The translations under genes and the position numbers were made by a program. From Streptomyces sp. HNM0574 (GTDB lineage: Bacteria > Actinomycetota > Actinomycetes > Streptomycetales > Streptomycetaceae), in NCBI RefSeq assembly GCF_012726235.1, contig NZ_JAASAH010000006.1, positions 124,001 to 188,000 on the forward strand: a stretch of 64,000 bases of DNA, in the 5' to 3' direction. Below the pieces are notes generated by a model. The model was not told the DNA's origin. It worked only from the letters and a program-made list of their open reading frames with translations, and did no database searches. The number at the start of each line of letters is the position of its first letter. Position 1 is the stretch's first letter. Of the stretch, positions 52,758 through 64,000 are shown piece after piece.

Positions 52758-53948
52758 TCACCCCCGCAGATGCGTCCCCATCCGCAAGAACGCCTGGAGC
52801 AGCGGCGGTTGGGAGACCGCTGGGGAGACGACCTGGGAGGCGTAGTGCACGACGACCAGGTCGAGGCCGGGGGAGACGAAGAGGCGCTGGCCGTGGATGC
52901 CGCTGGCCAGGAAGGAGCCGTAGGGGTCGTTCGGTATCCACCACAGGTCGTGGTACGAGAGGGTGGCGGGCGCGTCGGCCGGTGCCGCGGGGAAGCGGAC
53001 GCGGCGCGGGCAGCAGTCGGGGACGCCGGAGACGATCGTGGAGGCCACGGCCTCGGGGACGATCTGACGGTCACCGAGCGCGCCGCCGAGCCGGATCATC
53101 TCGCCGAACCTCGCCAGGTCGCGCGCCGTGGAGCTGAATCCGCCCGAGGCGGCCTCGTTGCCGTCCGCGTCGAGCAGGTAGTACGCGTCCTCCTCGGCGC
53201 CGATCCGGGACCAGATCATCTCGGACAGCAGCGCCGAGGTGGTGGTGCCGGAGACCCGCCGCAGCACCTCGGCGAGCGCCTCGACGTTCCCGTTCTCGTA
53301 CCGGAACCCGCCGCCGGGATCGCCCGTCGCGCGTGCGGTGGCGAGGTGTTCGCGGATGGTCGCGGGACCGGTGTAGCCGTAGGGGCGCAGGCGCGGCGCG
53401 AGGACGGCGAAGTAGCGCTGCGCCTCCAGCGCCTTGTCGTACGGGCGGCCCGCGTAGCTCATCCGGGTGCCCATGTGCAGCAGGTGGTCCACCCGCGCCT
53501 CGCCGAAGGCGGTCCCGGCGAGCTCGGGGACGTAGGTGGTGACGCGGGCGCCGCGGTCGAGCCGGCCCTCGTGGGCGAGGACGGCCGCGACGAGGCCGAG
53601 GTAGGACTTGGCGGCCGAGGCGTTGAAGTGCGGGGCCCGGGGCTGGAATCCGTGCAGGTACTGCTCGTGGACGAGCCTGCCGCGGTGCAGCACGAGGAGG
53701 GCGTCGGTCTCGGCCTCGGCGAGCAGTTCGGGGAGCGTGAGCCGCTGCCCGTGCGCCCCGTCGAAGGTGAGCGCGTCGAGCCCGCCGTCCCGGGGGCCGC
53801 CGGGCAGCGGCGACGGGACGCCGGGGCCCCGCCAGACGCGACGGCTGGGGAGCAGTTCCCGGCCCGAAGTCGTGTGCCACCGTGCCCAGTCGGGGTCGGT
53901 GTAGCCGCGTGCCCAGAAGAGGTCGGCCAGGGGAGGCGTACCGGTCAT
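52758..53948 (-). CDS. Serine hydrolase of the NylB/class C beta-lactamase group
   Basis: 396 residues, GGAG leader before ATG 53948. Active-site motifs: S-x-x-K in SAAKS (Ser111, Lys114) and Y-x-N in FRYENGN; the third motif (H/K-x-G) is SGIHGQRLFV. The spacing and SAAKSYLGLVAAVLAHEGRL block match 6-aminohexanoate-dimer hydrolase-like enzymes rather than true beta-lactamases. It would hydrolyse a linear amide or ester. Promoter box TATGGT (53994-53989) lies beside a half-site of the TetR operator found at 54793. Confidence 0.85.
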   Translation of the reverse strand: MTGTPPLADLFWARGYTDPDWARWHTTSGRELLPSRRVWRGPGVPSPLPGGPRDGGLDALTFDGAHGQRLTLPELLAEAETDALLVLHRGRLVHEQYLHGFQPRAPHFNASAAKSYLGLVAAVLAHEGRLDRGARVTTYVPELAGTAFGEARVDHLLHMGTRMSYAGRPYDKALEAQRYFAVLAPRLRPYGYTGPATIREHLATARATGDPGGGFRYENGNVEALAEVLRRVSGTTTSALLSEMIWSRIGAEEDAYYLLDADGNEAASGGFSSTARDLARFGEMIRLGGALGDRQIVPEAVASTIVSGVPDCCPRRVRFPAAPADAPATLSYHDLWWIPNDPYGSFLASGIHGQRLFVSPGLDLVVVHYASQVVSPAVSQPPLLQAFLRMGTHLRG

Positions 53949-53999
53949 GTTCGCTCCGCTCGTGATCGCTGTCGCCACTGAGCGCGAAACCATACGCGA

Positions 54000-54008
54000 T
54001 GTTCAGTA
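54000..54008. promoter_or_regulatory. Half-site of the 54793-54813 operator before the NylB-like gene
   Basis: TGTTCAGTA, identical over 9 bases to one arm of the palindrome at 54793-54813, lies next to the TATGGT -10 box of the hydrolase gene. Confidence 0.55.
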
Positions 54009-54051
54009 ATTCGACCACGGCGGGTGACCGGCCCCGGGAGGGCCCCGGCGC

Positions 54052-54684
54052 TCAGGGGGCGAGGTCGAGGGCCCCGGGGGCGTCGGACGGGGTGAGGCCG
54101 GTGGCCCAGACGCGGCCGTAGACGGACAGGTCGCGCAGGTGGGCCGTGACCTCGGTGGCGCTGTACCCGGTGTCGTTCTCGACCCACCAGGTGAGCAGGC
54201 CGATGAGTTCGCCGGTCCAGGCGCGCGCGACGATGTCGAGCGGAATCCTGGGCGTGACGCCGAGTTCCCCGGTGCGCGCGCGGAACGCGGCCTCCGCGTG
54301 CCGGCAGGTGAGGTCGGTGAACTCGCGCAGCGCGCGCCCGTCGCCCTCGCCCCGCAGGATCACCCGGTACACGTCCCGCTCCTGCTCGGCGTGCTCGAAG
54401 ATGTACTTCACCGGCAGCCCCGTGAAGCCCTCGGTGTGGGCCTGGCGCACCGCGGGCAGCAGGCGTTCGCGGTCCTCGGCGAGGTCCCGCACGACGCCGA
54501 TCAGCAGGTCCTCCTTGTCGCGGTAGTGCGCGTAGAAGGTGGCGCGGCTCACGTCGGCGCGTTCGGTGATCTCCTCGACGGTGACCGTCTGGAACCCCTT
54601 GTCCAGGGCGAGTTCGACCAGGGCCCGGCGCAGTGCGGCCCGCGTCCTGCGTACCCGGCGGTCTCCGGCCGGCTTCGTCTCCAC
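54052..54684 (-). CDS. TetR-family regulator
   Basis: 210 residues from GTG 54684 (GAGGG seven bases upstream); upstream ATGs would put the promoter inside the gene. Helix-turn-helix VTVEEITERADVSRATFYAH then YRDKEDLL. The C-terminal domain resembles TetR_C_7-type sensors. It is divergent from the acyl-CoA synthetase gene and the perfect palindrome at 54793-54813 lies between them. Confidence 0.9.
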   Translation of the reverse strand: METKPAGDRRVRRTRAALRRALVELALDKGFQTVTVEEITERADVSRATFYAHYRDKEDLLIGVVRDLAEDRERLLPAVRQAHTEGFTGLPVKYIFEHAEQERDVYRVILRGEGDGRALREFTDLTCRHAEAAFRARTGELGVTPRIPLDIVARAWTGELIGLLTWWVENDTGYSATEVTAHLRDLSVYGRVWATGLTPSDAPGALDLAP

Positions 54685-54792
54685 GTCGGTTCCCTCGTTC
54701 TCGTGCTCTCCGGACCCCTCGGTCCGTCCGGCTCCTCCGGGCCGTTGACCCGAGCCTAACGCTGCCTTTACGTTGCCGGACATCATGCTTGG

Positions 54793-54813
54793 TACTGAAC
54801 ACATTGTTCAGTA
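54793..54813. promoter_or_regulatory. Perfect 9-bp inverted-repeat operator
   Basis: TACTGAACA-CAT-TGTTCAGTA: arms are perfectly complementary with a three-base spacer. It lies midway between the divergent TetR (54684) and acyl-CoA synthetase (54856) starts. A degenerate third arm follows at AACTGTTGA. Confidence 0.9.
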
Positions 54814-54855
54814 ACTGTTGAGCAGGGAACCACCCCTCAGGGAACGGGAGTTGTG

Positions 54856-56412
54856 ATGAATCTCGGGCGGTACGTGCGCCGGACAGCAGGCCACCAACCC
54901 GATGCCGAGGCCGTGGTCTGCGGACCCGTCCGGCTCACCTACGCGGAACTCGACGACCACAGCGACCGCCTCGCCGTCGCCCTGCGCCGCCTGGGCCTGG
55001 ACCGGGGCGACCGCGTCGCCACCCTCGCCGCCAACCGCGCCGAACTGGTCGTCACCGAAGTCGCCCTCTACAAGGCCGGGCTGGCCCGCGCCCCGATCAA
55101 CGCGCGGCTCGGCACCGCGGAGGTCCGGCAGCTGCTCACCGAGTCGGACGCCAGGGTCCTGCTCGCCGACGCGGCCCACCTCGACGCCGTCCGCGACGCC
55201 ATACCCGGCACCGGCGTGCGGACGGTCCTCGGCTACGACGGCCCGAGCGACCTCGGCCCCGGCTACCGGGAGACCCTCGCCGCCACCGAGCCCGAACCCG
55301 TGGCGGCCGACTGCGCCGAGTCCGACATCGCCGTACTGCACTTCACCTCCGGCTCCACCGGCAGGCTCAAGGCGGCGGTGCAGACCTACGGCAACCGGAC
55401 GGCGCTGCTGCGCAAGACCGTGATGAGCGCCGCCACCCGGGTCGGCCCCGGCGACCGGCAGATCCTCGCGGGCCCCGTCACGCACGCCTCCGGCATGCCG
55501 CTGATGGGCATCTTCTTCGCGGGCGGCTGCGCCGTCGTCCTCCCGCGCTGGGACGCCGCCGAGTTCCTCGCGACCGTCCAACGCGAGCGCGCCACCCACG
55601 CGTTCGTCGTCCCGACGATGGTCAACACCGTCCTGGCACTGCCCACGGCACGGGAGTATGACCTGAGCAGCCTGCGCCAGCTCACCTACGGGGCCGCGCC
55701 CATGTCCCCGGCCCGCATCCGCGCCGCCTGGGACCTGTTCGGCCCGGTGCTCTCCCAGGGCTTCGGCTGCGGCGAGACCACCTCGGGCGTGCTCTTCCTC
55801 ACCACCGAGGACCACCGGCGGGCCATCGAGAACGGGGACGAGGAACTGCTGCTCTCCTGCGGCCGCCCGCTCGCCGAGGCCGAGGTGCGGATCGTCGACG
55901 ACGGCGGCACACCCGTCCCGGACGGCGAGATCGGCGAGATCGCCGTCCGCGGCCCCGACGTCGTCCCCGGCTACCACGACGCGCCCGCGCTCACGGCCGA
56001 GTCCTTCCACGACGGCTGGTTCCGCACCGGAGACCTGGCCCGTCGCCGCTCCGACGGCTACGTGTTCATCGTCGACCGCAAGAAGGACATGATCATCTCC
56101 GGCGGGTTCAACATCTACGCCGTCGAGGTCGAGTCCGTACTGCACCAGCACCCCGGGGTGTACGAGGCCGCCGTCGTCGGCGTCCCCGACGAGCGCTGGG
56201 GCGAGGCCGTGCACGCCGTCGTCGTCCCCCGCGAGGGCGCCGCGCTGGACGCGCCCGGGCTGACCGCCTTCTGTGCCGAACGGCTCGCCCGGATGAAGAA
56301 GCCCCGCTCCGTCGAGTTCACCGACGCGCTCCCGCACAACCCCAACGGCAAGATCGACCGCCGCGCCCTCCGCGAGCCGTACTGGGCCGGCGCCGAGCGC
56401 CGCGTCCACTGA
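54856..56412 (+). CDS. Acyl-CoA synthetase (AMP-forming)
   Basis: 518 residues, GGGAG leader; GTG 54853 also possible. Adenylation motifs: HFTSGSTGRLKAAVQ (P-loop, A3), YGAAPMSPARIRAAWDLFG (A4/A5 region), GYHDAPALTAESFHDGW then FRTGDLA (A7), YVFIVDRKKDMIISGGFNIY (A8) and the catalytic Lys in NPNGKIDRRAL (A10). It should activate a carboxylic acid to its CoA thioester. Leads the operon 54856-59046 (43 bp then 48 bp gaps). Confidence 0.93.
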   Translation: MNLGRYVRRTAGHQPDAEAVVCGPVRLTYAELDDHSDRLAVALRRLGLDRGDRVATLAANRAELVVTEVALYKAGLARAPINARLGTAEVRQLLTESDARVLLADAAHLDAVRDAIPGTGVRTVLGYDGPSDLGPGYRETLAATEPEPVAADCAESDIAVLHFTSGSTGRLKAAVQTYGNRTALLRKTVMSAATRVGPGDRQILAGPVTHASGMPLMGIFFAGGCAVVLPRWDAAEFLATVQRERATHAFVVPTMVNTVLALPTAREYDLSSLRQLTYGAAPMSPARIRAAWDLFGPVLSQGFGCGETTSGVLFLTTEDHRRAIENGDEELLLSCGRPLAEAEVRIVDDGGTPVPDGEIGEIAVRGPDVVPGYHDAPALTAESFHDGWFRTGDLARRRSDGYVFIVDRKKDMIISGGFNIYAVEVESVLHQHPGVYEAAVVGVPDERWGEAVHAVVVPREGAALDAPGLTAFCAERLARMKKPRSVEFTDALPHNPNGKIDRRALREPYWAGAERRVH

Positions 56413-56454
56413 CCCGCGCGCACACCACACCCACAGGAAACAGGAACCCCGACC

Positions 56455-57642
56455 ATGCCCTACACCCTCGAACCCTCCTACGACGACAACCCCCGCCTCC
56501 AGGAACTCGTCGGCCGGCTGCGCACCTACCTCACCGACGAGCTGCTGCCCTACGAACAGGAGCACGGCATCACCGCCGAGAGCGCGCTCGACCGGCCCAC
56601 GCTGGAGCACGTCTGGAAGCGCAGCGCCGAACTCGGCTTCTACGGCATCAGCCTGCCGCCCGAACTCGGCGGACAGGGACTGAACTTCACCGAACTGTGC
56701 GCCCTGAAGGAGGAACTCACCGCCTCCGGCGCAGCGCTGTCCCACTCGGTACTGGGCGACATGGGCGGCCCGCTGCGCGTCGGCGCGGTCGTCAAGTACG
56801 CCACCGCGTACCAATTGGAGCGCTACCTGATGCCCGTCGTACGCGGGGAACTCGCCTGCTGCTTCTCGATCACCGAACAGGACGCGGGCTCCGACGTCCG
56901 GCGGATGCGCACCACCGCCACCCGGGACGGCGACAGCTACGTCCTCGACGGGCACAAGGTCTTCTCCTCCGCCGCGCCCTTCGCCGACTTCGCGATCGTC
57001 GTCGCGCGCATGGCCGGTACGGGCACGGACGGCGGGGAGGAGGAGGCGTACAGCGCGTTCCTCGTCGACCTCGACACCCCCGGATGCCGCGTCCTGGAGG
57101 GCGAAGTGCCCATGTCCGGGCAGCGGATGGAGGGCGATCTGGTCTTCGAGAACTGCCGGATCCCGGCCGCGAATCTGCTCGGCGAGGCCGGCCAGGGCCT
57201 GCGCATCGGCATCGGCCGGATCACCCTCAACCGGCTGCTGCACTGCCCCTCCCTGATCGGCGCCGCGCGACGCTCCTGGGACCTGTCCGTCGCCTGGTCC
57301 AAGAGCCGCGTCGCCTTCGGCCGGCCGCTGCTCGCCCTCCAGTCGGTGCAGCACAAACTCGCCGACATGGCCACCGAGTTGTACGCGGCCCGCTCCATGG
57401 TGCAGGCCACCGCGGCGCGGGCCGACCGGGGCGAGAACATCGCCGTCGAGGCCAACATGTGCAAGCTCTTCACCTCCGAGAGCTGCTTCCGCGTCGCCGA
57501 CGAGGCCGTACAGCTGCACGGCAAGGCGGGGCTGACCCAGGGCCACGAGGTCGAGCGGATCTTCCGCACCCTGCGCATGTTCCGGATCGTCACCGGCACC
57601 ACCGAGATCCACAAGAACGCCATCGCCAAGGCCCTCGTCTAG
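56455..57642 (+). CDS. Acyl-CoA dehydrogenase family protein without the usual catalytic Glu
   Basis: 395 residues. N-terminal, middle and C-terminal ACAD domains are complete: CCFSITEQDAGSDVRRMRTT (FAD/substrate loop), FEPARV-like VFENCRIPAANLLGEAGQG, and GLTQGHEVERIFRTLR. At the position of the medium-chain catalytic base (Y-E-G-T) the sequence reads IVTGTTEIHKN, with Thr instead of Glu; the isovaleryl-type Glu of L-E-R-L is Asn in TLNRLL. The reaction may therefore differ or use another residue. Substrate is presumably the CoA ester made by the preceding enzyme. Confidence 0.9.
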   Translation: MPYTLEPSYDDNPRLQELVGRLRTYLTDELLPYEQEHGITAESALDRPTLEHVWKRSAELGFYGISLPPELGGQGLNFTELCALKEELTASGAALSHSVLGDMGGPLRVGAVVKYATAYQLERYLMPVVRGELACCFSITEQDAGSDVRRMRTTATRDGDSYVLDGHKVFSSAAPFADFAIVVARMAGTGTDGGEEEAYSAFLVDLDTPGCRVLEGEVPMSGQRMEGDLVFENCRIPAANLLGEAGQGLRIGIGRITLNRLLHCPSLIGAARRSWDLSVAWSKSRVAFGRPLLALQSVQHKLADMATELYAARSMVQATAARADRGENIAVEANMCKLFTSESCFRVADEAVQLHGKAGLTQGHEVERIFRTLRMFRIVTGTTEIHKNAIAKALV

Positions 57643-57690
57643 CCGGTCCGCGTCACGGAGCCAGGCCCTACCCGCAGGAGTCACTCACCC

Positions 57691-59046
57691 ATGGCCTCCC
57701 AGCCCTCCGCACCGCCCGCCCCGCTCCCCGCCGAGGAGCGGGACGCCCCACCGGAGTACGACCGGGTACGGGCCTGGCTCATCACCGCCATGATCGTCGT
57801 GTTCATGGTCGTCAACTTCGCCGACAAGGCCGTCCTCGGCCTCGCCGCCGTCCCGATCATGGACGAGCTGAACATCAGCCACGGCACCTACGGGCTCGTC
57901 TCCAGCTCCTTCTCCCTGCTCTTCAGCCTCTCCGGGCTCCTCGTCGGCTTCCTCTCCTCCCGCGTCACCAGCCGCGTCCTGCTCCTCGTGATGACGCTGA
58001 CCTGGGCGCTCGCCCAACTGCCGGTGCTCGTCGTGGCGTCCGTGCCCACCCTGATCGCGGGCCGGGTCCTGCTCGGGGCCGCCGAGGGGCCGGCCGCCTC
58101 GATGTCCATGCACGCCCTGTACAAGTGGTTCCCGCCGCACCGGCGCGGGCTGCCCTCCGCGCTCCAGATCAGCGGCGCCGCCCTGGGCACCCTGGTCTCG
58201 GCCCCCGTCCTCACCTGGCTGATCACGGAACACGGCTGGCGCTCCGCGTACGTCGCGCTCGCCGTCGTCAGCACGGCCTGGGCGCTGGTCTGGTGGCGCA
58301 TCGGGTACGACGGGCCCTTCGACGACGACCGCGCCGCGCGTGCGGAGGCGCGGCGGGGGAGCGGCCGGCCCGCCGCGCGGCTGCCCTACCGCAGGCTGCT
58401 GCTGAACGGCACCGTCCTGGGCAGCATCGCCAGCGCCTTCGGCGCCTCCTGGGCACTGTCCCTCAGCCACGCGTGGGTGCCGTCCTACCTCAGGACCGAA
58501 CTCGGCATGACGCCGGGCGCCGCGGCGAGCACCATCAGCGCGGTCGCCGGCTTCAGCCTCGTGCTGCTGCTGACGGTCTCGCCGCTGATGGACCTGCTCA
58601 AGTCTCGTGGCGTCAGCAGCCGTTGGTCCAGCGGCGCCACGCAGGGGTTCGTGGTCTGCGCCGCGGGCTGCGCCATGGCCGCCTTCCCCTTCGTCGAGGG
58701 GACGGTGCCCCGGCTGCTGCTGATCGGGCTGGCCTTCGGCACCGGCGCCGTCGCCGTGCCGCTGCACTACATGACCGTCGCCGAGGTCGTGCCCACCGCG
58801 CAGCGCGGCGCGGTCTTCGGCATCGTCGCCGCCACCGGCACCCTCCCCGGACTCGTCGGGCCCACCCTCACGGGCCACCTCATCGACGCGGCGGGGACGA
58901 CGGCCGACGGCTACCGGCTCTCCTTCCTCATCACCGCCCTGGTCATGCTCCTCACCGGCCTGCTCGCCGTGGCCTGCATCCGCCCGGAACGGGACGCCGC
59001 ACGCCTCGCCACGGTCCCGAACGGGACGCTCCCGCAGGGGGGTTGA
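57691..59046 (+). CDS. MFS transporter, ACS (anion:cation symporter)-like
   Basis: 451 residues with 12 hydrophobic helices. First helices: AWLITAMIVVFMVVNFADKA with the N-F-x-D-K/R of organic-anion (ACS-type) carriers, and VGFLSSRVTSRVLLLVMTLT in the loop 2-3. It likely imports the acid used by the pathway. Last gene of the operon led by the acyl-CoA synthetase; terminator hairpin follows. Confidence 0.9.
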   Translation: MASQPSAPPAPLPAEERDAPPEYDRVRAWLITAMIVVFMVVNFADKAVLGLAAVPIMDELNISHGTYGLVSSSFSLLFSLSGLLVGFLSSRVTSRVLLLVMTLTWALAQLPVLVVASVPTLIAGRVLLGAAEGPAASMSMHALYKWFPPHRRGLPSALQISGAALGTLVSAPVLTWLITEHGWRSAYVALAVVSTAWALVWWRIGYDGPFDDDRAARAEARRGSGRPAARLPYRRLLLNGTVLGSIASAFGASWALSLSHAWVPSYLRTELGMTPGAAASTISAVAGFSLVLLLTVSPLMDLLKSRGVSSRWSSGATQGFVVCAAGCAMAAFPFVEGTVPRLLLIGLAFGTGAVAVPLHYMTVAEVVPTAQRGAVFGIVAATGTLPGLVGPTLTGHLIDAAGTTADGYRLSFLITALVMLLTGLLAVACIRPERDAARLATVPNGTLPQGG

Positions 59047-59076
59047 CGTCCCGGCCTGGCACCCGGGGACGGTGCG

Positions 59077-59119
59077 GCCCGCGTGGAGAACCGGCCGTCG
59101 GGCCGTGCTCCACGCGGGC
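59077..59119. terminator. Bidirectional hairpin terminator
   Basis: Perfect 12-bp stem GCCCGCGTGGAG / CTCCACGCGGGC with 19-nt loop, between convergent MFS and metallo-hydrolase genes. Confidence 0.85.
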
Positions 59120-59123
59120 GTTC

Positions 59124-60470
59124 TCAGCCGTCCGCCTTCGCCCGCTCCTCGGCCACCCTGCGGTGCGGTTCGGAGAAGGCGAGCTTGCCCATCAGCGAGC
59201 CCTCGGCCGCGCGGCGCAGGTCGAAGACCTCCACGTAGCAGTCCTGCGCGGTGGGCGAGTCCGGCTCGGCGAGGAACGCCCACTCCGCCAGATGGCAGGC
59301 CAACCGCAGGTCGCTTCCGGCGAGTTCACGCGCCCGCGCCGCCAGCGCCCCGACGCCGCCCGCCAGCCGGGCCACCTCCCGGGCGCGCTCCCCGGCCGGC
59401 GCGGGCAGCAGGTTCGCGGCGTGACCGTCCCACCAGCCGCCGTAGCGCCGGATCACGTTGCGGCAGATGAACTCGGGCCGGTCGTAGTGCGGCTGGAGAC
59501 GCGGGTGCGCGGCGAGGTGCCCGGGCACCTCCAGCGCGTCCACGATCTCGTCCGGGCGCAGGCCGGAGTTGAGGCCGTCGAGCGTGTGCCGTACCAGGTA
59601 CCGGAGGTACTCGGCCATCGTCAGCAGTTCCTCGCGGACCGGCTCCGCGCCGTGCACGCAGTCGCCGTGCCCGGTGATCACGCACTCGGCGCCGAGTGAC
59701 GCCATCTCCTCGGCCGCCTCCGCCCACTCCTCCGCGTACCGCTGGACCTTGCGCGGGTTACCGGCGTTGGGCAGGTAGCCGACGACGAGGTCGCCCGCCG
59801 CGATCACCCGCCGCTCCGGTGCCCACACCCACGCGGCGTCGTCCGTCTCGCCCTTGGCGTGGCGTACGACGAACCGTTCGCCGCCGAGGCGCAGTTCGAG
59901 ACTGTCGCGGAAGGTGACGTCCGGGACGGTGAAGTCCTCCGGCGCGCTGGGCCAGCTGCGGCCGTTGGCGCCGGGGAGCTGCCCGTTGACCGCGGCGTTC
60001 AGGCCCGGGGTCCTGGCGTAGCGGGCGTAGTGGGCGAGCAGGTTCTCGTGGCCGACGACGCGGGGCCGCTCGCCCGCTTCGAGGAAGGCCCACAGACCGA
60101 AGGCGTGGTCGACGTGCCCGTGCGTGAACACGACGGTGTGCAGGGGCTGCCGGCTGATCCCGCGCACGGCGCGCAGCAGCGCCGGGCCGTCGCCCGCGCA
60201 GCCGGCGTCGACGAGGAGCAGGCCCTCGTCCGTCTCGAACAGGGCGACGTTCGCCATCCCGGGCCGGATCATGAACGTCCGGGCGGCGACCTCGGTCACC
60301 TCGGGCGGGTGCGGTGCGCCGATCTCGCGGGCCGCGACGTGCCGGAACTGTGCGTTGCCGATGTTGCCGAAGTTCTGCCGCATCAACGCCTGGGCGCCGG
60401 GGCCCAGTTGCCGGTCAGCGGGCGCGTCCCGCTCTTCCGTCCTGACGGGTCCGCCGGGTGTTTCGGGCAT
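59124..60470 (-). CDS. Alkylsulfatase-like metallo-beta-lactamase-fold hydrolase (copy 1)
   Basis: 448 residues. Metal motif FTHGHVDHAFGLWAFLEAGE (H-x-H-x-D-H), then VITGHGDCVHG with the third-site His. After the MBL domain comes the dimerisation segment NVIRRYGGWWDGHAANLLPA of alkylsulfatases and a helical tail; the C-terminal SCP2-like domain of SdsA1 is absent, so it is a short form. It should hydrolyse a sulfate or other ester with two metal ions. Divergent from TetR 60593; operator 60515-60536. Confidence 0.88.
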   Translation of the reverse strand: MPETPGGPVRTEERDAPADRQLGPGAQALMRQNFGNIGNAQFRHVAAREIGAPHPPEVTEVAARTFMIRPGMANVALFETDEGLLLVDAGCAGDGPALLRAVRGISRQPLHTVVFTHGHVDHAFGLWAFLEAGERPRVVGHENLLAHYARYARTPGLNAAVNGQLPGANGRSWPSAPEDFTVPDVTFRDSLELRLGGERFVVRHAKGETDDAAWVWAPERRVIAAGDLVVGYLPNAGNPRKVQRYAEEWAEAAEEMASLGAECVITGHGDCVHGAEPVREELLTMAEYLRYLVRHTLDGLNSGLRPDEIVDALEVPGHLAAHPRLQPHYDRPEFICRNVIRRYGGWWDGHAANLLPAPAGERAREVARLAGGVGALAARARELAGSDLRLACHLAEWAFLAEPDSPTAQDCYVEVFDLRRAAEGSLMGKLAFSEPHRRVAEERAKADG

Positions 60471-60514
60471 GGGGATCTCCTCACCGTGAAGGCGTGGGAA
60501 GGAACATTGACGCG

Positions 60515-60536
60515 GATTAAACCACGCGGTTTAATC
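60515..60536. promoter_or_regulatory. Perfect inverted-repeat operator
   Basis: GATTAAACC-ACGC-GGTTTAATC: 9-bp arms, perfectly complementary, 4-nt spacer, between divergent hydrolase (60470) and TetR (60593) genes. Confidence 0.9.
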
Positions 60537-60592
60537 GATGGGCAGGGAGAGGCGGTGCACGGCACCGCGTACGGAACAGCAGAGGCAGGACC

Positions 60593-61210
60593 GTGGAATC
60601 TTCGACCCGATTGCAGATCCTTCTCGCCGCGGAGCGTCTGTTCGCGACGCAGGGAATCGACGCGACCTCGCTGCGGCAGGTCAGCTCCGAGGCCCGGCAG
60701 CGGAATACGGCCGCGGCGAAATACCATTTCGGGGACAAGGAGACCCTGATCCGGGCCATCTTCGAGCACCGCCTCGGCGTGCTGGACGCCCGGCGCGGGG
60801 AGCTGTTGAGGTCCGCCGGTGAGGACGAGCGGCTCGACGACCCGAAGGTCCTCGTCGCCATCCTGGTCCGCCCGCTCGCCGAACAGGCCACCGTGCCGGG
60901 CAGTACCTACGTCCGCTTCCTGGACCGCGTGCTCGAACACGTCGGACGGGACGTCACCGCGCTCCCCGGCGTGGGCGGCCTGGAGGAGGCGGTGAACGTC
61001 GGACACCTGGTCACCGGCCGGCTCCCGTACCTGACAGAGCCCCGGCTCCGCCCCCGCATCCGCTGGGCGGGCCAGCTGATCATCTCGGCCCTCGCCGACC
61101 TGGAGGGCGCCGGACAGCCCGCCGCCGGCGAGCCGGACGCCGAGACGTACGTCGCGGCGCTGATCGACGCCGTCACCGGCCTGCTCACCGCCGACACCTC
61201 CGCGCCCTGA
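60593..61210 (+). CDS. TetR-family regulator
   Basis: 205 residues from GTG 60593, AGGA leader. Helix-turn-helix ATSLRQVSSEARQRNTAAAK then YHFGDKETLIRAIF. The C-terminal part ends in helices (QLIISALADLEGAG). The start of a three-gene run with the small membrane protein (40 bp later) and the second metallo-hydrolase. The palindrome at 60515-60536 is its probable operator. Confidence 0.9.
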   Translation: MESSTRLQILLAAERLFATQGIDATSLRQVSSEARQRNTAAAKYHFGDKETLIRAIFEHRLGVLDARRGELLRSAGEDERLDDPKVLVAILVRPLAEQATVPGSTYVRFLDRVLEHVGRDVTALPGVGGLEEAVNVGHLVTGRLPYLTEPRLRPRIRWAGQLIISALADLEGAGQPAAGEPDAETYVAALIDAVTGLLTADTSAP

Positions 61211-61250
61211 GTGCAGGGCGCGGAGACCCCGACGGAAGGAAGGACGCCGG

Positions 61251-61619
61251 ATGACGCTGCGGATCGCGTACGTCGTCGCCGGGCTCGCCATCGGCGGGGC
61301 CTGGGCGTACGGGCGGGACATGCCGCTGTGGGAGCACGCGCTGCGGCTGTGCGTGATCGTGGTGGTGGTCCCGCCCGTGCTGCACCTCGTCCGCCGCCGG
61401 CTGCGCCGCCCGGCGGCCCGGCACCTGCCGCTGCGGCAACTGGTGCTCGCCAAGGTGCTGCTCGTCCTCGGCGCCGTCGCCGTCGAGCTGCTGCTCGAAC
61501 CGCTGACCGCCGGCGCCTCCCTCATCACCGCGGCGGCCCTCGCAGCCGTGGTCGCCCTCGGCGGCCCGTCCTGGCACCGCAACCGCCACGGGGCGGCGGG
61601 ACCGCCCCGTACCCCATGA
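61251..61619 (+). CDS. Small membrane protein with three to four helices
   Basis: 122 residues, ATG 61251 after GGAAGGAAGGA. Helices: IAYVVAGLAIGGAWAYG, LRLCVIVVVVPPVLHLV, LAKVLLVLGAVAVELLL and a final Ala-rich one. No family recognised. Between a TetR gene and a hydrolase gene, it could help transport of the hydrolase substrate (inference). Confidence 0.65.
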   Translation: MTLRIAYVVAGLAIGGAWAYGRDMPLWEHALRLCVIVVVVPPVLHLVRRRLRRPAARHLPLRQLVLAKVLLVLGAVAVELLLEPLTAGASLITAAALAAVVALGGPSWHRNRHGAAGPPRTP

Positions 61620-61641
61620 ACCCAGCAGAGGATGCCCCCGC

Positions 61642-62910
61642 ATGGATGAGAACCCCGCAGGCCAGTGGCTCTCGGAGGGTCAACGCGACCCGCAGGACGC
61701 CGCGTTCTTCTGGACGGGCGGGCCCGTCGAGGTCGCCCGGGACACCTGGTTCACCTCGCTGGGCTCCGGCGTCACGGCCTTCGCCACCCGGGACGGACTG
61801 GTGCTCGTCGACTCCGGCACCCGCCTGTTCGCGGGCGAGATGGCCGGGCACGTCCGCTCCCGCACCGGCCTCCCGGTGCACACCGCCGTCTACACGCACG
61901 GCCACATCGACCACGCCTTCGGGCTCGACGCCTTCCTCGCCGAGGGACAGACCGCACCGCACGTCGTCGCACAGGAACGGATGGCGGAGCGGTTCGCCCG
62001 GTACGCGCGCAGCCCCCGGCACAACGCGGTGATCAACAGCCGCCAGTTCGGCGGCCGCAGCGACGACCCGACCTTCGAGGGCCCGGAACTGCGCTTCGGA
62101 TTCCCCGCGCACGAGCCCACCCGCTACTACCGGGAATCCCTCGAACTCGACGTCGGCGGCACCGCGTTCGAGCTGCACGCCTGCCGTGGCGAGACCGACG
62201 ACCACACCTGGGTCTTCTGCCCCGAGCGCCGGGTGCTGTGCACCGGCGACCTGATCATCTGGGGCGTGCCCAACGCGGGCAACCCGCAGAAGGCGCAGCG
62301 CTACCCATGGGACTGGGCCGCCGGCCTGCGGGCCATGGCCCGGACCGGCGCGGCCTCGCTGTGCCCCGGGCACGGCGGCCCGGTGGTGGACGACGAACGG
62401 CTGGTCCGGCGCATCCTGCTGGACACGGCCAGCTTCCTGGAGGACGTGGTCGAACGCACCCTAGCCGTCCTGGAGGATGGCTCGCCACCGCACGTGGACG
62501 TCGTACGCCGGGTGAAGCTGCCGGAGTCCGACGCGCCCTGGCTCCAACCCGTCTACGACGAGGCCGAGTTCATCGTCCGCAACGTCATCCGCTACTACGG
62601 CGGATGGTGGAGCGGACGCCCCAGCGAACTCAAGCCGGCCCCGCGCGCGGACGTGGCGGGGGAGCTGGCGGCGCTCAGCGGCGGCGCCGGCGCGCTCCTC
62701 GCCCGCGCCGTCGAACTCGCGCCCCGCGACCTGGCGCTGGCCTGCCACCTCGCCGACTACGCGCTGGAGGCGGCCCCCGACGACGCCGTCGTCGCCGCGG
62801 GCGTGGCCGCCCTCTACACCGAGCGCGGCACCCGGGAGACCGGCCTGATGGCGACGAACCTCTACCGCTCGGCGGCCGCCGAGGCACTGGCGCGGCACCC
62901 TTCGGCGTAG
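61642..62910 (+). CDS. Alkylsulfatase-like metallo-beta-lactamase-fold hydrolase (copy 2)
   Basis: 422 residues. Paralogue of the enzyme at 59124-60470: YTHGHIDHAFGLDAFLAEGQ (H-x-H-x-D-H), LCPGHGGPVVDDERLV for the third site, NVIRYYGGWWSGRPSELKPA for the dimerisation block. Preserved motifs mean it is probably active; its different N-terminus (DENPAGQWLSEGQRDPQDAA) may alter substrate choice. Same operon as TetR 60593. Confidence 0.88.
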   Translation: MDENPAGQWLSEGQRDPQDAAFFWTGGPVEVARDTWFTSLGSGVTAFATRDGLVLVDSGTRLFAGEMAGHVRSRTGLPVHTAVYTHGHIDHAFGLDAFLAEGQTAPHVVAQERMAERFARYARSPRHNAVINSRQFGGRSDDPTFEGPELRFGFPAHEPTRYYRESLELDVGGTAFELHACRGETDDHTWVFCPERRVLCTGDLIIWGVPNAGNPQKAQRYPWDWAAGLRAMARTGAASLCPGHGGPVVDDERLVRRILLDTASFLEDVVERTLAVLEDGSPPHVDVVRRVKLPESDAPWLQPVYDEAEFIVRNVIRYYGGWWSGRPSELKPAPRADVAGELAALSGGAGALLARAVELAPRDLALACHLADYALEAAPDDAVVAAGVAALYTERGTRETGLMATNLYRSAAAEALARHPSA

Positions 62911-63125: not shown

Positions 63126-64000
63126 GTGGCTGCTTTCCTCTACAAAACCGGCAAGTTCTCCTACCGCTGGAGGTGGTGGGTCACCGTCCTGTGGGCCGGA
63201 CTGCTCGTCCTGACCGGCGTTCTGGCCTCCCGCGCCGACGCCGCGCCGCCCAACGACTTCTCGCTGCCCGGCACCGAGGCCCAGCGCGCCTACGACCTGC
63301 TGGACGAACGGTTCCCCGGGATGAACGCGGACGGCGCCTCGGCCCGCGTCGTCTTCAAGGCCGGGGACGGCAAGGTGACGGCGCCCGACACCCGGCGCGC
63401 CGTCGAGGACACCGTCCGCGCGCTCGGCGCGGGATCACAGGTGAGCGCGGTCACCAACCCGTTCGAGACCGGCACCGTCAGCAAGGACGGCAGCACCGCC
63501 TACGCGCAGGTGTCGTACAGCGTGCCGGTCGCCGAGCTGACCGACGCCTCCCGCGAGGAGCTGACGGACACCGTCGGGGACGCGCACTCCCCGGAGCTCA
63601 CCGTCGAGGCGGGCGGCAACGCCGTCTCCGACGCGATGGGCGGCCACTCCTCGGAGGCGGTCGGCCTCGCGGTGGCGGCCGTGGTGCTCGTCCTCACCTT
63701 CGGCGCCCTGATAGCCGCCGGACTCCCGCTGCTCACGGCCCTGTTGGGGGTCGGCATCGGCACCTGCGCCATCAAGGTGCTGGCGGCCCCGCTCGGCCTG
63801 GGCGGGACGACCTCCGTCCTGGCCACCATGCTCGGCCTGGCCGTCGGCATCGACTACGCGTTGTTCGTCGTCTCCCGCTACCGGGACGAACTGGCCCGCG
63901 GCAGGAGCCGCGAGGAGGCCGCCGCGCACGGGGTGGGCACGGCGGGCTCCGCCGTCGTCTTCGCCGGACTGACCGTGGTGATCGCGCTCGCGGGCCTGTC
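63126..64000 (+). CDS. MMPL/RND-family transporter (partial)
   Basis: The frame is open from GTG 63126 (TTG 63123 also possible) to the right edge, 291 codons. An N-terminal helix (WWVTVLWAGLLVLTGVL), a large extracytoplasmic domain of about 150 residues (FSLPGTEAQRAYDLLDERFP), then helices with the MMPL signature LATMLGLAVGIDYALFVVSR, whose Asp-Tyr pair relays protons. ActII-3-like exporters of Streptomyces have this order. It would export lipid or drug-like molecules. C-terminal half lies outside. Confidence 0.9.
   Translation, partial: MAAFLYKTGKFSYRWRWWVTVLWAGLLVLTGVLASRADAAPPNDFSLPGTEAQRAYDLLDERFPGMNADGASARVVFKAGDGKVTAPDTRRAVEDTVRALGAGSQVSAVTNPFETGTVSKDGSTAYAQVSYSVPVAELTDASREELTDTVGDAHSPELTVEAGGNAVSDAMGGHSSEAVGLAVAAVVLVLTFGALIAAGLPLLTALLGVGIGTCAIKVLAAPLGLGGTTSVLATMLGLAVGIDYALFVVSRYRDELARGRSREEAAAHGVGTAGSAVVFAGLTVVIALAGL

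Follow-up and report, generated by a model that had tools for sequence, protein, structure and literature searches.

In Pseudomonas fluorescens SBW25 the NylB-like methyl esterase Pme, a CoA ligase and an acyl-CoA dehydrogenase are needed for growth on phenylpropanoid methyl esters (PMC12642758). The locus that we compare with this and other described systems lies at positions 52758-62910 of a 64,000-nucleotide stretch of Streptomyces sp. HNM0574 (G000:C31:124001-188000 in a genome of 6.37 Mb), which we call the window. Its nine genes fall into two neighbouring modules. Module A (52758-59046) encodes a NylB-like serine hydrolase, the putative regulator TetR1, an acyl-CoA synthetase (ACS), an enzyme of the acyl-CoA-dehydrogenase fold (ACAD) and a carrier of the major facilitator superfamily (MFS); module B (59124-62910) encodes MBL1, TetR2, a small membrane protein and MBL2, the two MBL proteins being short alkylsulfatase-like enzymes. 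The genes named in a first-pass annotation of this DNA are all present where it placed them and belong to the families it gave (PF00144, two TetR, AMP-binding, ACAD, MFS and two Lactamase_B plus Alkyl_sulf_dimr proteins). To these we add the gene for the small membrane protein (122 aa), a lone operator half-site and some probably over-long gene starts.

At the family level, module A resembles the Pme-Fcs-Pcd genes of SBW25, where a NylB-like serine esterase, a CoA ligase (feruloyl-CoA synthase), an acyl-CoA dehydrogenase, a transporter and a TetR protein are likewise clustered, and by analogy we take that pathway to be the closest functional parallel to module A. Unlike the window, the Pme-Fcs-Pcd gene table contains no alkylsulfatase-fold enzyme, and the ech, vdh and thiolase genes of the SBW25 system are absent from the Streptomyces island (PMC12642758). 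The Rhodococcus qsd operon for lactones and acyl-homoserine lactones is similar in that a TetR-controlled hydrolase feeds an acyl-CoA ligase, but QsdA is a lactonase, and the available part of that paper describes no NylB-like hydrolase or alkylsulfatase-fold enzyme (PMC6476934). With the type III alkylsulfatases SdsA1, SdsAP and Pisa1, the MBLs share the MBL and dimerisation domains, the fold of the whole chain (Z 29.1-29.7), the HxHxDH motif and the first zinc Glu; they differ in their length of 422-448 aa, in having no Alkyl_sulf_C match, in an Asp that replaces the second zinc Glu and in an identity of about 20% (19-22%). The SdsA homologue CD175_30230 is, like MBL1 and MBL2, an alkylsulfatase relative without the C-terminal domain, but it has a signal peptide, clusters with SdsA and was inactive on sodium dodecyl sulfate (SDS) in E. 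coli (PMC6107682). Among the matches listed from the open-licence PMC literature, none describes this gene set or module A, and none assigns a reaction to the short alkylsulfatase-like enzymes. The first-pass annotation had not recognised the exact set. The enzyme families are known; their combination is new.

We propose, with a probability of roughly 0.45, that the locus holds two neighbouring catabolic modules, that under TetR control these take up and hydrolyse an ester or sulfate-ester acid and activate it as a CoA thioester, and that both serve the same or a related compound. The proposal is built on observed gene content, synteny, operator conservation, predicted fold, metal-ligand conservation and co-occurrence, from which we infer repression by TetR1 and TetR2, every reaction, the substrate class and the service of both modules to one compound. 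Release of TetR1 from its operator would turn module A on. An organic anion would enter through the MFS carrier, the serine hydrolase would cleave an ester bond (an amide being less likely), ACS would make the CoA thioester, and the ACAD would catalyse the following, flavin-dependent step, after which general beta-oxidation takes over. TetR2 would control MBL1 and MBL2, which may take a sulfate-like group, or an acidic ester group of another kind, off the compound used by module A or one related to it, and in this way supply module A. Beside module A of some relatives one finds instead a full-length alkylsulfatase of the SdsA type, which is probably exported. The repeated partnership with alkylsulfatases gives module A a testable substrate class, and the locus, being self-contained, TetR-controlled and in a genus that can be cultured, would make it possible to assign a reaction to the short alkylsulfatase-like family.

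Module A is a recurrent, operon-like block. ACAD, searched for in 295 same-genus genomes at E 1e-110 or better with the six best candidates per genome scored, occurs in 26 of them, 25 besides our own. Twenty of these 25 have the carrier on the same contig as ACAD and no more than about 3.1 kb away, the remaining five being G059, G086, G102 (separate contigs), G187 and G236. Nineteen of the 20 loci, selected for having both ACAD and carrier, were compared at length. All 19 have TetR1, ACS, ACAD and MFS, with TetR1 near ACS throughout, and 14 have the serine hydrolase (70-84% identical copies in 13, plus L152), to which L146, L149, L150, L157 and L158 show no match. Eight loci have the arrangement of the window (serine hydrolase/TetR1/ACS/ACAD/MFS) and 11 have a second one (serine hydrolase/MFS/TetR1/ACS/ACAD). 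Neither MBL2 nor TetR2 nor a close relative of MBL1 was found in any of the 19, and the synteny comparison that had been suggested for the whole island therefore upholds module A as a unit but does not extend to module B. At L152 (5463-6101) the serine hydrolase beside module A matches as two lower-identity pieces only and may be decaying.

Each TetR gene is accompanied by one perfect-armed palindrome, which confirms an earlier claim. The predicted TetR1 operator, in the TetR1-ACS gap about 40 bp 5' of the ACS gene (54793-54813), reads TACTGAACA-cat-TGTTCAGTA with 9-bp arms, and imperfect copies occupy the same place in relatives. The predicted TetR2 operator, between the divergent MBL1 and TetR2 genes (60515-60536), reads GATTAAACC-acgc-GGTTTAATC, again with 9-bp arms, its 4-bp centre not itself being palindromic. 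The 64 kb contain 13 palindromes with arms of at least 9 and spacers of at most 6, compared with a mean of 6.4 in 20 simulated sequences; of the 13, the TetR1 and TetR2 palindromes are the only ones whose arm has at least five A/T (simulated mean 0.1). In the whole genome the TetR1 site is single, with seven further places matching at 3 mismatches, and the inner pattern of the TetR2 site has no second match when up to 2 mismatches are allowed. In 17 of the 19 module-A loci (L140 and L148 are the exceptions) the TetR1-ACS gap holds a TetR1 half-site that deviates at one position or none and in some of them overlaps an over-long TetR1 match; the second half-site is imperfect in relatives that share the window's gene arrangement. 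The TetR2 palindrome is identical in L020 and L024, and in L022 it keeps 8-bp arms with the outer base changed; those of L021 and L023 are degenerate. On this basis TetR1 and TetR2 would act as repressors through their palindromes. The lone half-site mentioned above, TGTTCAGTA at 54000-54008 on the forward strand, 5' of the serine hydrolase gene, is a candidate extra TetR1 site. Just 5' of the TetR1 operator, the block CGTTGACC...CTAACGCTGCCTTTACGTT (54743-54774) is well conserved in module-A loci of the window's arrangement and may be a promoter or the site of a second regulator.

Sulfatase-type enzymes and module A are probably connected in function, judging from gene neighbourhoods and co-occurrence. 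When the 26 ACAD genomes were searched for PF14863, the alkylsulfatase dimerisation domain, a full-length SdsA-type alkylsulfatase was found no more than 5 kb from module A in 8 of the 25 other genomes and in both arrangements, 3' of MFS in G118, G190, G282 and G246 and 3' of ACAD in G195, G072, G133 and G116. These adjoining alkylsulfatases have open frames of at least 627 aa; the C-terminal domain PF14864 is confirmed by Pfam in L141 and lies at the same places in seven of the eight among the matches listed (G133 is not among them). Because PF14864 exceeds its cut-off anywhere in only 175 of 392 same-genus genomes, the chance of such adjacency is low, and from genome size we estimate it at far below 1 in 100 per genome. 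Moreover, ACAD is present in four of the five other genomes that have TetR2 with MBL2, in three of them not adjacent, whereas it occurs in 26 of the 295 same-genus genomes and in 7 of 65 from Actinomadura. It is adjacent in Streptomyces sp. B-S-A6, lies on another contig together with ACS, MFS and TetR1 in B-S-A8, and is accompanied by ACS and TetR1, with no carrier match at the cut-off used, in the two Actinomadura genomes; the Amycolatopsis genome has no ACAD at E 1e-80. Across the 65 Actinomadura genomes, 22 of which have a short MBL, all seven that bear ACAD have one, versus 15 of the other 58 (p 2.4e-4, uncorrected), and both genomes with an MBL2 orthologue are among the seven (p 0.010, also uncorrected). 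The Actinomadura short MBLs are mostly 42-46% paralogues.

Module B is rarer than module A. TetR2 was found in one of the 295 same-genus genomes, our own, and the other MBL2 matches (E 1e-60, 150 same-genus genomes) are paralogues of 45-48% from six genomes, with two more in our own. When 84,980 species genomes were scanned with six peptide patterns, 191 relatives emerged; in five of the best 80 of these 191, the ones retained (L020-L024, from two Streptomyces, one Amycolatopsis and two Actinomadura) a TetR2 copy with 56-78% identity adjoins MBL2. All nine genes are adjacent in B-S-A6 (L024/L177), with a 525-aa beta-propeller gene inserted between the carrier and MBL1. A single nine-gene island can thus be rejected as a general unit, since only one other genome seen has all nine and there a tenth is inserted. 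The first-pass annotation had suggested one island acting on one acyl compound; with module B in none of the 19 loci and the nine genes together in only one other genome, this is not borne out in its general form, although a link between the modules is likely.

Several observations weigh against our proposal. Of all the genomes seen, the window's own and that of B-S-A6 are the only two in which the modules are neighbours, and the compared stretch has no alkylsulfatase match in 12 of the 19 module-A loci (that of L140 ends 1.3 kb past the carrier). In Actinomadura no short MBL lies within 100 kb of ACAD on the same contig, the two being otherwise on different contigs. In our own genus a short MBL accompanies ACAD in 2 of 14 genomes versus 5 of 136 without it, which is not significant (p 0.13, or 0.43 with our own genome excluded; the comparison assumes that the 150 surveyed genomes are G000-G149), and the p values given here are not corrected for relatedness or for the several tests made. 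A CoA-transferase match is found 3' of ACAD in L148, L150 and, in part, L154. Finally, hydrolysis of an alkyl sulfate yields an alcohol, and neither Pfam nor NCBIfam identifies an alcohol or aldehyde dehydrogenase among the island proteins.

Could the two modules then be unrelated and abut by chance? Module A would break down an ester-linked acid, for instance a phenylpropanoid methyl ester, and module B would act on a different compound. We regard this as a realistic possibility that falls short of even odds. It agrees with the finding that module A stands without an adjoining module B in all 19 compared same-genus loci and module B without an adjoining module A in L020, L021, L022 and L023, and with the separate TetR genes and their unrelated operators. 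On the other hand, chance would have to account for the ACAD found somewhere in four of the five other module-B genomes, well above the frequencies given for the two genera, and for the adjacency in two strains whose proteins are, for these genes, 76-89% identical.

The nature of the proposed reaction in module B depends on what MBL1 (59124-60470, reverse strand) and MBL2 (61642-62910, forward strand) are. The two are related, with 46% identity over 350 aligned positions, but to call them paired, as had been done, is misleading because they fall in separate clades: in a tree of 91 rows MBL2 belongs to a clade of 33 (100/100) and MBL1 groups with Actinomadura L074 (100/98), which rules out a tandem duplication. 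Actinomadura violacea has MBL2 with TetR2 on one contig and, on another, an MBL1-like gene accompanied by a divergent TetR gene. Both proteins exceed the Pfam cut-offs for Lactamase_B and Alkyl_sulf_dimr, and neither has a Pfam match to the C-terminal SCP2-like domain (PF14864, Alkyl_sulf_C), which a genome-wide profile search places in our own genome only at C13 and C3. An AlphaFold model of MBL2 (mean pLDDT 91) matches SdsA1 over the whole length (2cg2: Z 29.7, rmsd 3.1, 400 residues aligned, 20% identity); matches ranking below the alkylsulfatases include 8d2z, the chlorothalonil dehalogenase 6uxu and PqsE. Across 40 aligned sequences H88, D90, H91, E184, D203 and H244 of MBL2 are invariant. 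H86 is Gln in L027, L028 and L033, MBL2 orthologues of Myxococcota and Alphaproteobacteria that have TQGHxDH instead of HxHxDH. An alignment with L158 identifies E184 as the first alkylsulfatase-specific zinc Glu and places D203 at the position of the second. Alkylsulfatases use two glutamate zinc ligands (PMC5426288); in all 40 sequences the second is Asp, and MBL1 and MBL2 consequently lack the Glu pair of type III alkylsulfatases. By eye, no N-terminal export signal is seen in the translations of MBL1 and MBL2; the full-length relatives L141 and L151 have an RRGF Tat-like start, and the L158 frame is without one.

A second alternative, which fits one pathway or two, is that MBL1 and MBL2 are esterases, lactonases or thioesterases on a sulfatase fold that yield the acid for ACS. 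This too is possible, if somewhat doubtful. The Asp at the second zinc position and the missing Alkyl_sulf_C domain point this way; the latter also disfavours long-chain alkyl sulfates such as SDS as substrates. An SdsA homologue without the SCP2-like domain had no activity on SDS, although its authors admit expression problems, which lessens the force of the comparison (PMC6107682). An acyl-CoA ligase gene lies directly 5' of MBL2 in L038 and L043, and the qsd operon offers a precedent in combining a lactonase, an acyl-CoA ligase and a TetR regulator (PMC6476934). For a sulfatase-type activity, as in our proposal, speak the first alkylsulfatase-type zinc Glu kept in every one of the 40 sequences, the whole-chain match to alkylsulfatases and the recurrence of full-length alkylsulfatases beside module A.

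The genes around MBL2 elsewhere contribute little to this choice. Of 16 loci from which 20 neighbours were hand-picked, eight have one of catabolic or transport type (CoA ligase in L038 and L043, MFS in L042, a TauD-type dioxygenase in L022, a solute-binding protein in L023, a PF00884 sulfatase in L029, an esterase in L045 and L060, the last also with TctC) and the other eight have none, and we give the survey little weight because no partner is shared. In L038 (Hyphomicrobiales) MBL2 has a gene for an ADP-forming acyl-CoA ligase on one side and an MFS gene on the other, which speaks for our proposal. A first clustering of the neighbours, whose open reading frames came from a custom caller prone to wrong-frame calls, gave, apart from MBL itself, a wrong-frame artefact as the only widely shared one. 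At each of the two Actinomadura loci a gene of 312 aa lies 3' of MBL2 (L022 11322-12257, L023 11355-12293), the L022 copy being a TauD-family dioxygenase. Type II alkylsulfatases such as Rv3406 belong to the TauD dioxygenase family. The assignment of Rv3406 to type II has been published (PMC3675115).

In our tree the family of short alkylsulfatase-like enzymes is broad and extends to the haloarchaea. Halomarina halobia, a haloarchaeon, carries an MBL2 orthologue (55%) on a plasmid (L047), which suggests transfer between domains. Our own genome has two full-length alkylsulfatases elsewhere (L167, L168), the first with a 41% identical MFS gene about 4.5 kb away, and a third short alkylsulfatase-like gene that adjoins an MFS gene (L159, G000:C1:18000-37999), similar pairs being seen in L160, L161 and L164. 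In the branch of this third gene an MFS gene adjoins in four of the seven loci seen (our own, G080, G065 and G086), a pairing that likewise favours our proposal; in G148 and G106 there is no MFS match within the compared stretch, and in G096 it is about 17 kb off.

The serine hydrolase of module A (52758-53948, reverse strand; PF00144, the class C beta-lactamase fold, 93.8 bits in Pfam) has 4gb7 as its best PDB match (E 7e-64) and matches NylB (1wyc) at E 3.5e-41. In alignment it keeps the SxxK motif and the Tyr of YxxN. The residues for nylon-oligomer amide hydrolysis in NylB are Y170, D181 and N266; by this numbering, the Asp region appears to be kept and a Ser seems to stand where NylB has Asn. 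A simple nylonase is rejected, NylB being a distant match and the nearest functionally shown gene set an ester pathway.

The ACAD (56455-57642, forward strand) matches the N, middle and C domains of acyl-CoA dehydrogenases in Pfam. Acyl-CoA dehydrogenases have two usual positions for the catalytic Glu, the loop-JK and the isovaleryl/long-chain one (PMC11659651, PMC12369846). In all 24 aligned sequences (the window, the 19 module-A loci and L174-L177) the first, mapped by alignment, is Thr and the second, mapped through the isovaleryl-CoA dehydrogenase sequence, is Asn. Either the base of the ACAD is elsewhere or its reaction is different, and because both known positions are changed the oxidation suggested by the first-pass annotation is uncertain. 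Some other reaction on a CoA ester, for example one that eliminates a sulfur group like that of the 3-sulfinopropanoyl-CoA desulfinases of this fold, would suit these substitutions, the sulfatase context and the rank of the desulfinase model as third-best NCBIfam match, but we consider it improbable, since that score (189.9 bits) is well under the cut-off of 600, the best match is to acryloyl-CoA reductase (221.3 bits, cut-off 640) and the base has moved in other acyl-CoA dehydrogenases as well (PMC11659651, PMC12369846). A real long shot is an actinobacterial pathway, so far undescribed, for sulfur-bearing ester acids, in which the MBLs without an SCP2 domain would strip off or expose an acidic group, ACS and the carrier would bring in the acid as a CoA thioester, and the Glu-less ACAD would complete sulfur removal or another non-oxidative step.

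The other genes of the locus can be described briefly. Comparison with relatives makes 53948 the more likely start of the serine hydrolase gene, the one first called being probably over-long. TetR1 (54052-54804, reverse strand; Pfam TetR_N and TetR_C_8) also probably has an over-long called start, the same comparison placing it at about 54684. ACS (54853-56412, forward strand; Pfam AMP-binding and AMP-binding_C) is closest in NCBIfam to PRK06187 (447.4 bits, below the cut-off of 476), the carrier (57691-59046, forward strand; Pfam MFS) to TIGR00893 (153.9 bits, below the cut-off of 395) and TetR2 (60593-61210, forward strand) to PsrA (60.7 bits, cut-off 300). The 122-aa protein (61251-61619, forward strand), probably a membrane protein as judged by eye, has no Pfam match and travels with module B, copies of 60-78% identity being found in L020, L021 and L024. 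Beyond MBL2, a membrane protein gene at 63126-64000, presumably MMPL-like, runs past the end of the window; it has relatives in L020, L021 and L023 and, directly 3' of MBL2, in L024.

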